This document shows, piece after piece, positions 28,301 through 43,522 of a stretch of DNA of 43,628 bases. Each line of letters starts with the position of its first letter. Within the stretch, counting starts at the first letter, position 1. Made by a program: the position numbers and the translations under genes. Source of the DNA: Ruminococcus sp. (GTDB taxonomy: Bacteria; Bacillota; Clostridia; Oscillospirales; Ruminococcaceae); contig JAISHV010000045.1 in the NCBI GenBank assembly GCA_031262495.1, positions 1-43,628 of the forward strand, read 5' to 3'. The notes below the pieces were generated by a model. The model was not told where the DNA came from and made no database searches. It saw nothing but the letters and a program-made list of their open reading frames with translations.

Positions 28301-28587
28301 CAACATACCTCAATAAAAATTTCGTAGCGGCAAATACCGTAAAACGCATAGGCGAGGGTCACCCCGACGTGATGGATTTACTGGACAGCGGCGATATAGA
28401 TTATGTAATTTCAACCTCAAAAAAAGGGCGTCTCCCCGCTCTTGACGGCGTAAAAATCCGCCGAAAAACCGTAGAACGCTCAATCTGCTGTCTCACATCA
28501 ATGGACACAGCAAACGCCGTAGCAGACATCCTCCTCATGGGGAAGGCGATTGATGATATAGAAATGGTAGACATAACAGAAATTTAG
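25387..28587 (+). CDS. carB: Carbamoyl-phosphate synthase large subunit
   Basis: 1066 aa, full length. Makes carbamoyl phosphate from ammonia (supplied by CarA), bicarbonate and two ATP, for pyrimidine and arginine synthesis. Two ATP-grasp halves start at VMVIGSGPIVIGQAAEFDYAG and at VIVFGSGPIRIGQGIEFDYC (about residue 555); each carries its glycine-rich loop (FTLGGTGGGI; YVLGGQNM) and metal-binding EVNPR. The C-terminal MGS-like allosteric domain (about 935-1066) includes YATSGTATYL. carA is not in the window. The final codons run into a family C repeat just after the stop. Confidence 0.98.
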   Translation: MALRTDIKKVMVIGSGPIVIGQAAEFDYAGSQACRALKEEGLEVVLINSNPATIMTDKTMADKVYIEPLTLDVIKKIIRMERPDSLLSTLGGQTCLTLSMQLAKEGFLDEMGVKLLGADPLTIHKAEDRQAFKDTMEKIGEPCIPSKVVETVQDALEYAENEIGYPVIVRPAFTLGGTGGGIAYNSEELLDISTNGLRLSPITQVLIEKCISGWKEIEFEVIRDAKGNVITVCSMENFDPVGVHTGDSIVVAPAQTLADKEYQMLRSAALNIISELKVEGGCNVQFALHPESFRYAVIEVNPRVSRSSALASKATGYPIAKVAAKIAIGFTLDEIINAVTGKTYACFEPALDYIVLKFPKWPFDKFVYAKRTLGTQMMATGEIMSIGTTFEQAMMKAVRSVELGLDTLNLKKLSGLSDAQIEADLQKVDDERVFVVFEALKRGISVDKIHEITMIDEWFLYKLLNLVNLEKSLAADELTDELYLKAKKLGYTDDVIKRISGKEIKNPRRAVYKMVDTCAGEFDAQTPYFYSTYDDDNEAASFKAEHTDKSKKTVIVFGSGPIRIGQGIEFDYCSVHCVWALKELGYDAVICNNNPETVSTDFDTGDRLYFDPLTKEDVESLLLTEKPYGVVVQFGGQTAIKLTKHLVNLGANILGTPADSIDAAEDRERFDELLTKCEIPRPDGHTVMNTEEALKAAESLGFPVLMRPSYVLGGQNMIIAHEAADIVEYMEIIMRQGLENPVLIDKYMMGKEVEVDAICDGTDVLIPGIMEHVERAGVHSGDSISVYPSMTLTEKSRRTILEYTKKLALALNVRGMVNIQYVVYAGEVYVIEVNPRSSRTVPYISKVTGVPMVDVATKIMFGITLKEQGYSDGLYKKAEYIAVKVPVFSFGKLHDVDTELGPEMKSTGECLGIAHDYADAVFKGFVGAGYEFTKVGDSILISVRDSDKKEVVYCAEKFERMGYKIYATSGTATYLNKNFVAANTVKRIGEGHPDVMDLLDSGDIDYVISTSKKGRLPALDGVKIRRKTVERSICCLTSMDTANAVADILLMGKAIDDIEMVDITEI

Positions 28588-28610
28588 AGGTCAGAAGTCA
28601 GAGGTCAGAT
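28586..28610 (+). repeat. Short family C tandem repeat after carB
   Basis: AGAGGTCAGAAGTCAGAGGT directly after the carB stop codon, followed within 5 bases by ATGAACCC, the start of the 61-aa frame. Confidence 0.75.
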
Positions 28611-30158: not shown

Positions 30159-30232
<74 letters not shown>

Positions 30233-30319
30233 GGCGCCTGAGGCGCCGCGCAGTGCAGCAACGCTGCGTATCGCTGATGGAAGTTTTTCAGTTGTCTGAA
30301 GATGCTCACCGCGTAGAAG
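30233..30319 (+). repeat. Family B element, copy 1a
   Basis: Starts on the base after the tRNA. Hairpin GGCGCC-TGA-GGCGCC (30233-30247), a second hairpin GCAGC-AAC-GCTGC (30255-30267), box GTATCGCTGATGGAAGT (30268-30284), 17-nt spacer, tail ATGCTCACCGCGTAGAAG (30302-30319). Confidence 0.85.
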
Positions 30320-30398: not shown

Positions 30399-30507
30399 AT
30401 GCTTACCGTATAGAAGATACAATCATTTGTGCTTCTACGCGGTGAGCATTTTTATTTTTCTGAAAGACTACCATCGCGAAATAACTGCCGACTTGGTCGG
30501 CTTTTTT
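30399..30507 (-). repeat. Family B element, copy 1b, facing copy 1a
   Basis: Reverse orientation. A degenerate tail copy (30399-30416) forms an inverted pair with CTTCTACGCGGTGAGCAT (30432-30449); then 17-nt spacer, box complement ACTACCATCGCGAA, and hairpin GCCGAC-TTG-GTCGGC (30487-30501) followed by TTTTTT on the plus strand, a good plus-strand terminator. Between 1a and 1b (30320-30398) lies another hairpin, CAGTTGC-TTC-GCAACTG (about 30365-30381). No gene is seen in 30233-30508. Confidence 0.8.
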
Positions 30508-30508
30508 A

Positions 30509-30537
30509 TTGACTTTTAGGAATGAACGTAGTATAAT
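30509..30537 (+). promoter_or_regulatory. Promoter of the 135-aa gene
   Basis: TTGACT (30509-30514), 17 bases, TATAAT (30532-30537), 39 bp before the ATG. It starts 7 bases after the family B hairpin. Confidence 0.8.
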
Positions 30538-30991: not shown

Positions 30992-31108
30992 CTTCTACGC
31001 GGGCGGGCGGCGCGGCAACCGCGCTGTTAGATCGCGATGGAAGTGTCTTAGAAAAATATAAATGCTCACCGCGTAGAAGATACGTATGTACTTCTACGCG
31101 GTGAGCAT
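30992..31108 (+). repeat. Family B element, copy 2
   Basis: A partial tail CTTCTACGCGG (30992-31002), hairpin GCGCGG-CAA-CCGCGC (31010-31024), box ATCGCGATGGAAGT (31031-31044), 17-nt spacer, tail ATGCTCACCGCGTAGAAG (31062-31079) and its inverted copy (31091-31108) around ATACGTATGTA. The 18-bp inverted tails make a strong hairpin that could end transcription either way. Confidence 0.85.
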
Positions 31109-31261: not shown

Positions 31262-33802
31262 ATGAAATTCAAAAAAATTTTCGCGCTGTTTTTTTCGGTT
31301 TTTTTGATTGCTTTGGTTTTGCCGGTGACGGCTTTGCCGGTGAGGGCGGCGGAACAAAACATGACGGGTGAGCAAGCAACGCAAAGCGGATATACTTTTG
31401 AGGACGAAAGCATATACGGCGGTGTCAGAATTACCGCGATAGATAGCTCAAAATTCAGCAGTGCGCTCACATTCCCGGCATACATAGATAATAAGCCTGT
31501 CACCATCATAGGAAAGGCAAATAGATCTAACAACTGGGATTGCATTAGTACAGTCAGCGGACATATTACAAGCATTAGTTTACCATCAACAGTAAAGCTT
31601 GTTGATACTATGGCATTTGCTGATTTTACTAATGTAACTTCCATATCTCTTAACGAAGGATTGGAAGGAATAAATTTCAGAGCATTTGACAATGTATATA
31701 TGTTGCCGGCGATAACCATACCGAATAGTGTTAAAGAAATCGCCAACAATGCGTTCCATAGATGTTACTATTTAAGAAGTGTTACATTTTTAACAAGCGG
31801 CAGGGTCTCACTCGGTTGGCGCGCATTTATGCTTGAAGGTAAAAATGCTGTTAAGGTTGAAAATGTATATGTCATAAAAGGCGCAACGATAAGCGGTTCA
31901 ATAGACGGAGAACGCACAGAAATCGGTGCTGTAATTACCTACAACAATGTTGAAGGCGCATCAAACCCGAACCCTACTTATTATCTGTATAACACCGGGA
32001 TTAATAGTTTCTCGCAGCTCTCCGGCAGAGCAGGTTATACTTTCGCCGGATGGTCTCCCTCAAGCATTTCAAATACAGACACCGGTGAAAAAACAATTAG
32101 CGCACAGTGGACACCGAATCAAATAACAGTTTCGCTTGATGAACAAAACGGAAATGCGGTCAACGATGTAGTTTACACCTACGCAACAACCGATAACGAA
32201 AGCATTTTACTCCCCACACCGACACGGACAGGCTTCGTTTTCACAGGCTGGTATACTTCTTCAAGCGGCGGCACTGAGGTTACAACTATAACCAATACGA
32301 CATATTCGGCAAACACAACGCTTTATGCACAGTGGCTGAGAATTCTTGATACCCCGGCAGTTGACATTGATTTTGATGAAGAAAAACTCGTCGGCTTAAG
32401 CGAAACAACATACACAATCGACGGCACTCAAATAACACTAGATGTAGACGGCAGTTTGGATATTGATGAAAATTGGCTCGGGAAAGATATTCAGATAATC
32501 GCCAAAGGCGACAATGTTTTGACAACCGACAGCGCGGTACAAACACTCTCTATCCCCGCCCGCCTGCCTGCTCCGACAGATTTAACGGCAGTTGATGAAC
32601 GTACTTACCAAGGAGAAAACGGCGAAATTCAAGGCTTGGACGATACGAAAATTTATGAATACAGAAAAATCTCAGACGCCCACTATACGCAAGTAACGGC
32701 TTCATCAGCTGAAATTGCGCCGCTTGCGCCGGGAATGTATTACGTGAGACTTGCGGCAACGTCAAACGATTTCGTAAGCCCGGATTCAGCGGCATTAACG
32801 ATTAACGCGTATATACGAAATACAGACGCAACCCTTTCAGACCTGACATTTAACGGCAAAACCATAGCAGGTTTTTCACCGTCACGGACGGCGTATGCTA
32901 TGACGGTCGCATATAAAACAAGCACCGCAACATTGGCGGGAATACCCGCCGACAATAAAAATGCAGAGGTTTCGGGCGATTTAGACAAGAAAATGCTGGG
33001 AGTCGGCGCGAATACGTTCACAGTCACCGTAACAGCGGAAGACGGCAGTACAACCGATTATGTTATTACCATAACAAGGCAGGAAGCCCCGAAAATCGAA
33101 ATCCCCCCATACACCCCGTATCATGCTCCCGCTCCGAGCTACAACCCCGGCGGAACTAATAAATACACCTCAAAAACAGGCATAACATCAACGGTAACAG
33201 TCACCGACAGCGGCGTAACAGTCGATGCAGGGCTGAATAAATCCGGTTCTGTAAACTCGGAAGCGACAGCGGCGGCGGTGAAAAAGGCGGCGGAAATCGC
33301 CAAGAAAAACGGCGAACCGTCCGTTACGATAATAATCCCCGAGGGCGCAACAGGTTTGTCAGCTTCAACAGTTCAGAAGCTTGTCAAAGCCGCAAACGGC
33401 ACAGAAATTGTACTTGCCCTAACATCAATGACAGACGGCGAAGAAGTCGGCAGTATAAGCTTGCCCATAAACAACAAAACAGAACAAATTTTAACAGGAT
33501 TATATTTTGAAACAACGCGGATTTACACCGTTCAAAACTACATCAAAAAGCACTGGAATCCGGGCATCTTAAGCGGATTTGAAACGGCACAAAAAGGCGG
33601 CTGGGGAACTGTAGCGACACTAAAAATTAACCTCGAAAAATTAGGCTTTGAAGCCAAAGAAGGAGAAGAACTTTACGCGCTGATTTACGATACAAAGGCG
33701 AAAAAGTGGTATCAATCGGCGGCAGAAGTTATTGACGGTGAAGTTGTTATCAAAACTAAGCGGACGGGGATAGTAACGATAGTGACCGATTCCGTAAAGT
33801 AG
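31262..33802 (+). CDS. Secreted BspA-LRR / InlB B-repeat protein
   Basis: 846 aa, exported. Signal peptide 1 to about 29 (MKFKKIFALFFSVFLIALVL, cleavage near VRAAEQ). Residues about 50-190 are BspA-type leucine-rich repeats (ITSISLPSTVKLVDTMAFAD; LPAITIPNSVKEIANNAF). About 235-365 are two InlB B-repeat/Listeria-Bacteroides units (GYTFAGWSP; TPTRTGFVFTGWYTSSSGG). About 520-610 is a cadherin-like beta-sandwich (ATLSDLTFNGKTIAGFSPS; TDYVITITRQ), then a Pro-rich linker and a C-terminal domain of unknown type. No LPXTG, SLH or membrane anchor is visible, so it is probably released or held non-covalently. Likely an adhesin or surface-layer component. Family B copies in opposite orientation flank it. 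Confidence 0.88.
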   Translation: MKFKKIFALFFSVFLIALVLPVTALPVRAAEQNMTGEQATQSGYTFEDESIYGGVRITAIDSSKFSSALTFPAYIDNKPVTIIGKANRSNNWDCISTVSGHITSISLPSTVKLVDTMAFADFTNVTSISLNEGLEGINFRAFDNVYMLPAITIPNSVKEIANNAFHRCYYLRSVTFLTSGRVSLGWRAFMLEGKNAVKVENVYVIKGATISGSIDGERTEIGAVITYNNVEGASNPNPTYYLYNTGINSFSQLSGRAGYTFAGWSPSSISNTDTGEKTISAQWTPNQITVSLDEQNGNAVNDVVYTYATTDNESILLPTPTRTGFVFTGWYTSSSGGTEVTTITNTTYSANTTLYAQWLRILDTPAVDIDFDEEKLVGLSETTYTIDGTQITLDVDGSLDIDENWLGKDIQIIAKGDNVLTTDSAVQTLSIPARLPAPTDLTAVDERTYQGENGEIQGLDDTKIYEYRKISDAHYTQVTASSAEIAPLAPGMYYVRLAATSNDFVSPDSAALTINAYIRNTDATLSDLTFNGKTIAGFSPSRTAYAMTVAYKTSTATLAGIPADNKNAEVSGDLDKKMLGVGANTFTVTVTAEDGSTTDYVITITRQEAPKIEIPPYTPYHAPAPSYNPGGTNKYTSKTGITSTVTVTDSGVTVDAGLNKSGSVNSEATAAAVKKAAEIAKKNGEPSVTIIIPEGATGLSASTVQKLVKAANGTEIVLALTSMTDGEEVGSISLPINNKTEQILTGLYFETTRIYTVQNYIKKHWNPGILSGFETAQKGGWGTVATLKINLEKLGFEAKEGEELYALIYDTKAKKWYQSAAEVIDGEVVIKTKRTGIVTIVTDSVK

Positions 33803-33810
33803 AATTAAAA

Positions 33811-33911
33811 ATGCTCACCGCGTAGAAGAACTTAATTGCATCTTCTACGCGGTGAGCATATTTATTTTTCTGAAAGACTTCCATCGCGAAATAACCGGCG
33901 ACTTGGTCGCC
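33811..33911 (-). repeat. Family B element, copy 3
   Basis: Begins 8 bases after the secreted-protein stop codon. Inverted tails 33811-33828 and 33842-33859 form an 18-bp hairpin followed by ATTTATTTTT, a likely terminator for that gene; then spacer, box complement ACTTCCATCGCGAA and hairpin GGCGAC-TTG-GTCGCC (33897-33911). Confidence 0.85.
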
Positions 33912-35959: not shown

Positions 35960-36029
35960 CTCCTACGCGGAGAGCATAAATGAATCTCTAACGCACTTCC
36001 ATCGCGATACGACTGTCGGGTCGCCCGAC
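35960..36029 (-). repeat. Family B element, copy 4, after tRNA-Leu
   Basis: Minus-strand order from the base after A73 of tRNA-Leu: hairpin GTCGGG-CGA-CCCGAC (36029-36015), box TATCGCGATGGAAGT, 17-nt spacer, tail ATGCTCTCCGCGTAGGAG (35977-35960) with two changes from the common tail. Confidence 0.85.
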
Positions 36030-36108
36030 TGCGGGTGACAGGACTTGAACCTGCACGAATTAACATCAGATCCTAAATCTGACGCGTCTGCCATTCCGCC
36101 ACACCCGC
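36030..36108 (-). tRNA. tRNA-Leu (TAG)
   Basis: 79 bases on the minus strand without CCA. Acceptor GCGGGTG pairs with CACCCGC, A73 is base 36030. Anticodon stem TCAGA/TCTGA with loop TTTAGGA gives anticodon TAG. The long variable arm (about TGTTAATTCGT) and the TGGCGGAATGGCAGACGC D region are type II and leucine-like. The only minus-strand gene on the right arm. Promoter at 36118-36146. Confidence 0.93.
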
Positions 36109-39300: not shown

Positions 39301-39457
39301 CGGCAATGACAAAATCACCGAAATCATAAAGAAAAACGCCGCTCAAATCGGTAAAGACGTTTTAGCCCGAAATTTCACATATGGTGAAACTGCTGGGTTT
39401 ATTGAGGAGTGGAATATTAACGGGGAAGTTGTGACGTTGTCGGTGGAAAAAATTTAA
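36320..39457 (+). CDS. ileS: Isoleucyl-tRNA synthetase, type 2
   Basis: Charges tRNA-Ile; class Ia. 1045 aa, the length of the eukaryote-like IleS2 group, which is typically less sensitive to mupirocin. HIGH is at 64-67 (PTANGKPHIGHVLT) and KMSKS at 597-601. The editing domain (about 200-400) has TTPWTLPSNVALCVNP. The Cys pair motifs CKCGHRDC and CEKCGGEM lie before KMSKS, and the anticodon-binding domain is AEIDKFDATKY...NWYVRRCRERFW. A Cys-rich patch (CECGCHADVCEKNG) sits at 32-45. GGTGA precedes the ATG. A family B hairpin begins on the base after the stop codon. Confidence 0.97.
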   Translation: MHSKVSTSMDFVSREKTILEFWQDKKIFEKSCECGCHADVCEKNGLNRQYVFYDGPPTANGKPHIGHVLTRAIKDIIPRFHTMKGQYVPRKAGWDTHGLPVELEVEKLLGINGKDQIENYGIEGFIEKCKESVWKYKGMWESFSDTVGFWADMEHPYVTYHNTFIESEWWSLKKIWEKELLYKGFKIVPYCPRCGTPLSSHEVAQGYKDVKERSAIVRFKVKDEEAYILAWTTTPWTLPSNVALCVNPDESYVKVKAGDYVYYMAEALVSAVLGEETEILQHFKGRDLEYKEYLPLWDFAKTDKKGFYVTCDNYVTLTDGTGVVHIASAFGEDDSNVGKKYDLPFVQLVDSNGNMSPETLWGGTFCKDADKLILKDLEENGKLFSAPVFEHSYPHCWRCDTPLIYYARDTWFIRMTAVRDDLVRNNETVNWYPKNIGIGRFGDWLKNVQDWGISRNRYWGTPLNIWECKCGHRDCIGSIEELKQKAFECPDNIELHRPFIDKVKIKCEKCGGEMTRVPEVIDCWYDSGAMPFAQHHYPFENKELFESQFPADFISEAVDQTRGWFYSLMAISTLIFNKSPFKNVIVMGHVQDKDGQKMSKSNGNAVDPFEALETYGADAVRWYFYTNSAPWVPSRWNGEYVKEGQRKFMGTLWNTYAFYVLYAEIDKFDATKYKADPETLTLMDKWILSKMNTMIKDVDENLSGYRIPEACTALEKFTDDLSNWYVRRCRERFWATELTPDKINAYLTLYTALVNTAKCAAPMIPFMTEQIYQNLVCNLDTTAPESIHLTLFPEADVNQIDETLESQMEMVLKIVTAGRAARNGSSVKNRQPLSKAYIKTEVTLGLDYADIIKDELNIKAIEFTDNTAEYISYSFKPQLKTVGPKYGKQLGEIKTALTEIDGSAAHAELDSTGVLVLKLQSGEARLYAEDLLIDIKQKEGYFACADGAVTVVLDLNLTPELIEEGFVNEIISKVQTMRKKAGFVVMDNITIGVNGNDKITEIIKKNAAQIGKDVLARNFTYGETAGFIEEWNINGEVVTLSVEKI

Positions 39458-39542
39458 GCCGGTGCCCCGGCAGGGCTGGCAGCAACGCTGCGTATCGCTG
39501 ATGGAAGTATTACTGAACCTCACAATGCTCACCGCGTAGAAG
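39458..39542 (+). repeat. Family B element, copy 5, after ileS
   Basis: Starts on the base after the ileS TAA. Hairpin GCCGG-TGCC-CCGGC (39458-39471), second hairpin GCAGC-AAC-GCTGC (39479-39491), box GTATCGCTGATGGAAGT (39492-39508), 16-nt spacer, tail ATGCTCACCGCGTAGAAG (39525-39542). The second hairpin and box are identical to copy 1a. Confidence 0.85.

Positions 39543-43344: not shown

Positions 43345-43522
<178 letters not shown>

Follow-up and report, generated by a model that had tools for sequence, protein, structure and literature searches.

Hairpin repeats and unrelated heptamer arrays abut gene ends in the genome of a Ruminococcus species

The stretch of DNA analysed here (the window, 43,628 nt, to which all positions refer as a whole) contains several copies of a short repeat, family B, that begin on the base after a gene. 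The tRNA-Met gene with anticodon CAU, of the initiator type (tRNA-fMet), occupies 30159–30232 on the plus strand and ends with A73 at base 30232; the hairpin GGCGCCTGAGGCGCC of copy 1a starts at 30233. This copy (30233–30319, plus strand), whose left boundary is the tRNA, is formed by the hairpin GGCGCC-TGA-GGCGCC, a second hairpin GCAGC-AAC-GCTGC, a core and the tail ATGCTCACCGCGTAGAAG. The tRNA-Leu gene (UAG; 36030–36108, minus strand) is bordered in the same manner by copy 4 (35960–36029, minus strand; hairpin GTCGGG-CGA-CCCGAC), A73 lying at 36030 and the hairpin GTCGGGCGACCCGAC running from 36029. In copy 5 (39458–39542, plus strand) the neighbour is the TAA stop codon of ileS at 39455–39457, right after which the hairpin GCCGG-TGCC-CCGGC begins (GCCGGTGCCCCGGC from 39458), followed by a second hairpin GCAGCAACGCTGC, the core and the tail. 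Neither tRNA-fMet nor tRNA-Leu has an encoded CCA. A preliminary description of this DNA had placed the three junctions on these same bases and had already noted the lack of CCA; both statements are confirmed.

Inverted partners occur among the copies in the window. Copy 1b (30432–30501, minus strand) is the inverted partner of copy 1a; a separate degenerate tail, with 3 mismatches and no hairpin, lies at 30399–30416 on the plus strand. The hairpin of copy 1b (30487–30501) and the TTTTTT flanking it make a terminator-like site when read on the plus strand; directly after this site, within 30487–30537, there is a good promoter match, TTGACT-17-TATAAT, with its −35 TTGACT at 30509. Copy 3 (31010–31079, plus strand) has the hairpin GCGCGG-CAA-CCGCGC, core and tail, and its inverted partner at 31091–31108 is reduced to the tail. 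Another tail-only copy (33811–33828, plus strand), located 8 nt past the TAG of the ORF at 31262–33802, faces a full inverted copy with hairpin GGCGAC-CAA-GTCGCC (33842–33911, minus strand). A repeat unrelated to family B follows the same rule: a heptamer array (AGGTCAGAAGTCAGAGGTCAG; 28588–28610, plus strand) starts right behind a gene whose TAG ends at 28587. An Rfam scan of the window matched only tRNAs at the gathering score. Forty consecutive G at 43431–43470, beside a long stretch rich in C, may be an artefact of assembly or a G-rich repeat.

Family B is abundant. With up to 3 mismatches allowed, the tail is matched 9 times in the window, where 0.01 matches would be expected, and 145 times in the genome (2.08 Mb), where a reversed control pattern gives 1. 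A covariance model trained on 33 copies detects at least 150 copies genome-wide. Its anatomy was studied in 436 kb of stretches around known copies and tRNAs, which yielded 148 cores; a hairpin could be recognised at 127 of them, and two hairpins at 20. The unit of about 70 nt consists of a GC-rich hairpin of 13–15 nt (4–8 GC-rich pairs, loop of 3–4 nt, several sequence classes), then TTCGCGATGGAAGT, an AT-rich stretch and ATGCTCACCGCGTAGAAG; the block TCGCGATG after the hairpin is near-invariant. The left side of the hairpin is host sequence, and the bases that follow it are GGTT, AGTT, TGTT, GGGC, AGTC or AGGGC. Past the tail there are about 17 weakly conserved bases, often passing into TCTGTAT-type heptamers, and the right end of the element is not sharply defined.

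The hairpin pairs covary, with a score of 0.318 against 0.094 after shuffling, in an alignment that has the class with 4-nt loops out of register. In the core, the candidate stem CGCGATG/CACCGCG offers no covariation because its sequence is nearly invariant. A mini-ORF that can be drawn in the core (ATGGAAGT...GCGTAG) was discarded as not conserved, since about 40% of the copies have an AT-rich stretch whose length differs by one base. The loop also covaries with the 3–4 bases on the 3' side of the stem (AAC/GTT, GAC/GTC, GCC/GGC), which resembles guide pairing or an alternative hairpin; the complement of the loop is found 3' of the stem in 69 of 127 copies (shuffle mean 23, maximum 35), a count that overstates the independent events because the copies are related. 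A few cores without the usual hairpin (C6:2203, C46:8454, C68:4197, C81:16944, C89:3737, C101:3275) are preceded by another repeat, itself a small hairpin, that ends ...CAAAGACTTTGA or with a close variant.

The position relative to stop codons was determined for the 54 copies that have a hairpin, are not nested and have a coding stop in the interval −12 to +60, using gene calls from a simple codon-usage caller. The start falls at offset −1 or 0 in 30 of the 54 copies, and within −9 to +6 in 48 of them. Chance is excluded as the origin of this spike (binomial P about 3e-17, even allowing only 21 positions). Rather than lying at random distances from gene ends, the outcome against which the preliminary description had set its claim, the copies keep their precision at gene 3' ends genome-wide, at dozens of protein stops. 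In copies at offset −1 the third base of TAG is the first G of the hairpin stem, and TAG accounts for 14 of 33 abutting stops compared with 37 of 272 elsewhere (P=2e-4); the boundary is thus as far in as it can be without loss of the stop. The C-terminal end of ileS coincides with that of its orthologs in two congeners. Among the other abutted C-termini are what we take to be those of a ferredoxin, GAPDH, YchF and ribosomal protein S11, the last of which suggests a host in the Bacillota. The gene ends abutted by family B therefore look natural. We also considered that the element supplies the stop codon, and rejected it: the stops vary (TAA, TAG, TGA) and ileS finishes at its natural end, so that only the G of TAG may be contributed by the element.

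The precise junctions of family B are mostly stop codons rather than tRNA ends. In a survey of 41 tRNA genes, five have a copy starting at or beside the discriminator base and 36 have none, and for this reason insertion specific for tRNA ends was rejected. Of the specificity that the preliminary description proposed, for gene 3' ends or for tRNA acceptor ends, the precision at gene 3' ends stands and the preference for tRNAs does not. Further edges are used as well. In a minority of all copies the start coincides with the base of a terminator stem (C4, C23, C60, C93), and inspection by eye shows others starting 1–7 nt ahead of the Shine-Dalgarno sequence of an oppositely pointing gene, or 8–11 nt ahead of a −35 box, the case of TTGACT at 30509 having separate support. 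No shared target motif was seen by eye at the non-stop junctions. The element has polarity: its hairpin end points toward gene 3' ends 94 times and toward gene 5' ends 28 times. Some copies are nested and begin inside older ones, after ACCGCG (C20, C25, C28, C35, C37, C38, C48, C56, C75) or after TTCGCG (C9, C54, C60, C62, C80). These fixed start points right after CGCG suggest recombination or a site preference at CGCG.

The heptamer arrays of this genome, of CAGARRT or TAGARRT type (CAGAAGTCAGAGGT...), provide a control that shifts the reading, as they are non-palindromic and their sequence is unrelated to family B. Of the 41 gene ends with such an array within 150 nt, 35 have its start no more than 5 nt from the stop; by eye, an array lies at most 6 nt from N73 in 14 of 40 tRNAs, and these are different tRNAs from those with family B. 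Arrays in the TCTG orientation ahead of genes end at a median of 20 nt before the start codon, just short of the Shine-Dalgarno sequence. Moreover, at 25 of the 49 family B copies that face a convergent gene, the repeated sequence ends no more than 3 nt from that gene's stop. Across 329 gene ends, repeat coverage is 0.08 at −10, 0.33 at 0 and 0.44 at +20; these ends come from regions chosen around family B copies and tRNAs, which inflates the levels and leaves the position of the step unaffected. The window had not been selected with this analysis in view; there, repeated 12-mers cover 31–38% of intergenic and 3–8% of coding bases. Since unrelated arrays and both edges of the spacers obey the same rule, the sharp boundary is a general property of the repeats of this genome. 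Two findings weaken the case for an insertion mechanism specific for family B: the heptamer arrays lie against stops and tRNA ends just as well, and terminator stems, Shine-Dalgarno sites and −35 boxes are likewise bordered by hairpin edges. The position seems to be set by the gene edge rather than by tRNA-seeking insertion.

The core pattern was absent from 40 relatives, four of them congeners, and the commonest hairpin from 24 relatives. Among the exact matches to the tail in other genomes, the four contexts inspected have neither core nor hairpin and were rejected as family B, and so was a single match in a viral contig that lacks both. Congener genes, where matched, are mostly 66–77% identical in DNA, and several of the congener spacers are very short, with a Shine-Dalgarno sequence about 5 nt past the stop in several operons. 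In two congeners the next gene follows ileS at once, with no family B between them, and tRNA-fMet and tRNA-Leu have no element in the one congener examined for them. The comparison with empty sites that the preliminary description suggested gave a partial answer: the element is absent after the congener tRNA-fMet, tRNA-Leu and ileS, but the flanks are too diverged to be aligned. Heptamer-like arrays occur after 9 of 44 congener tRNA flanks. Directly past the discriminator base of several congener tRNAs (e.g. L242, L236, L259) there is a short motif, GTCCGTGCC or GTCCGCCTTAAT.

Several known repeat systems resemble family B in part. REPs tagged with GTAG or CGTC are GC-rich hairpins with stems of 5–13 bp and loops that are often CMA, which hug gene 3' ends and often supply a TAG stop codon (Di Nocera 2013, PMC3733652). 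Both kinds are short GC-rich hairpins of high copy number, intergenic, with dimers and compensatory stem variants. The family B hairpin fits the size and copy number of those 20–40 nt palindromic units, yet it belongs to a larger unit (about 70 nt), in which a conserved core and tail extend for about 50 nt past it; it has no GTAG or CGTC tag beside it, and the RAYT/Y1 transposase of the GTAG class was not found in its 93%-complete genome. Unlike a MITE, family B has no terminal inverted repeats, as its hairpin and tail ends are unrelated and only tail-to-tail pairs form inverted repeats. Lacking REP tag, transposase and terminal inverted repeats, it is filed neither as a REP nor as a MITE. A derivative of a group IIC intron was rejected too: the reverse transcriptase model PF00078 has no match, only a minority of copies lie at terminator stems, and Rfam matches in the window are tRNAs only. 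An effect has been reported for E. coli REPs that lie no further than 15 nt from a stop codon (discussed in PMC12306157). Family B shares with them hairpins at 15 nt or less from stop codons; however, E. coli REPs are spread over 1–20 nt or more, whereas the mode of family B is exactly 0 and the rule here extends to tRNAs and to non-hairpin repeats. The TAACTGA heptamer arrays of Beggiatoaceae are intergenic, lie a few nt from start codons and in some cases overlap stops, their mechanism being unknown (PMC4679880). The heptamer is a different one here; its arrays lie against stops and tRNA ends, and they are linked with a hairpin element. We read family B as a dispersed, non-autonomous hairpin repeat, restricted to the species, of the REP or small-dispersed-repeat kind. 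Small dispersed repeats (SDRs) of Nostoc, reportedly described by Elhai in 2008, are very short hairpin repeats near heptamer arrays that are apparently mobile with no known enzyme. Their sequence and host appear unrelated to those of family B.

We think that the zero-gap rule probably results from fast turnover of spacer DNA limited by selection, and we give this reading a probability of about 0.58. Insertion into genes would be harmful, and for this reason, we propose, the copies are confined to spacers. The spacers would turn over quickly, repeats entering them while unconstrained bases are lost, and in a lineage with short spacers the repeats would come to extend to the first base under selection, be it of a stop codon, a tRNA discriminator base, a terminator stem, a Shine-Dalgarno sequence or a −35 site. 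One rule would then hold for different repeats and host features because turnover stops at the last constrained host base, and the base after a tRNA would be the edge of constrained host sequence rather than a recognised target. Some observations go against turnover. Most hairpins are intact at the junction, whereas random insertion and deletion should give ragged, truncated ends; the nested copies have fixed starts, resembling site preference or recombination at CGCG; and there is the 94:28 polarity. The intact hairpins and the polarity are poorly accounted for by turnover, and therefore a serious, if improbable, rival is a machinery, common to family B and the heptamer arrays, that attaches new copies to gene 3' ends or to the 3' ends of the RNAs made from them; its targets could be RNA ends left by processing or some structure where genes end. 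A zero-gap spike with hairpins intact and directed mostly toward gene 3' ends is what such a machinery would produce, and a functional 3' boundary is what tRNA N73, the stop codon and the terminator stem have in common. It would, however, have to serve two unrelated repeat types, and the edges of Shine-Dalgarno and −35 sites of oppositely pointing genes are abutted too, with no common motif seen by eye at the non-stop junctions; besides, neither the Y1 transposase (PF01797) nor the reverse transcriptase (PF00078) has a match in the 93%-complete genome. That a process in the genus sets unrelated repeats exactly at gene edges, guided by gene or RNA ends and not by DNA sequence, is in our opinion slightly less probable still.

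Functional explanations fare worse than selection-limited turnover. The strong covariation of the hairpin, its abutting position and the effect reported for stop-proximal REPs (PMC12306157) would suit a 3'-UTR module kept by selection, in which the hairpin adjoining the stop acts on the ribosome or on the 3' decay of mRNA or tRNA. We consider this quite unlikely, as heptamer arrays with no hairpin obey the same rule, many family B copies lie antisense between genes, and the element is missing from congeners, even behind ileS; a stop-proximal hairpin function is insufficient because it leaves the arrays unaccounted for. A role in transcription termination or tRNA 3' processing, the other possibility raised in the preliminary description, might be imagined from the two window tRNAs carrying family B and from the terminator-like site of copy 1b. 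That site is an exception on the opposite strand, though: in the sense direction the hairpin is followed by GGTT, AGTT, GGGC or AGTC and by no U-tract, terminator-like hairpins stand further downstream at many loci, and the great majority of tRNAs have no copy. The proposed role in termination finds no general support, and we regard an element for either purpose as very improbable.

If turnover limited by selection is the true origin of the rule, the edges of the repeats would map, base by base, where constrained host sequence stops; for example, nothing past A73 would be needed for tRNA-fMet and tRNA-Leu. If, on the other hand, repeats are inserted at functional boundaries, a new mode of targeting common to unrelated repeats would be at work. 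Under either reading, adjacency to a tRNA is no evidence for a tRNA-specific integrase.
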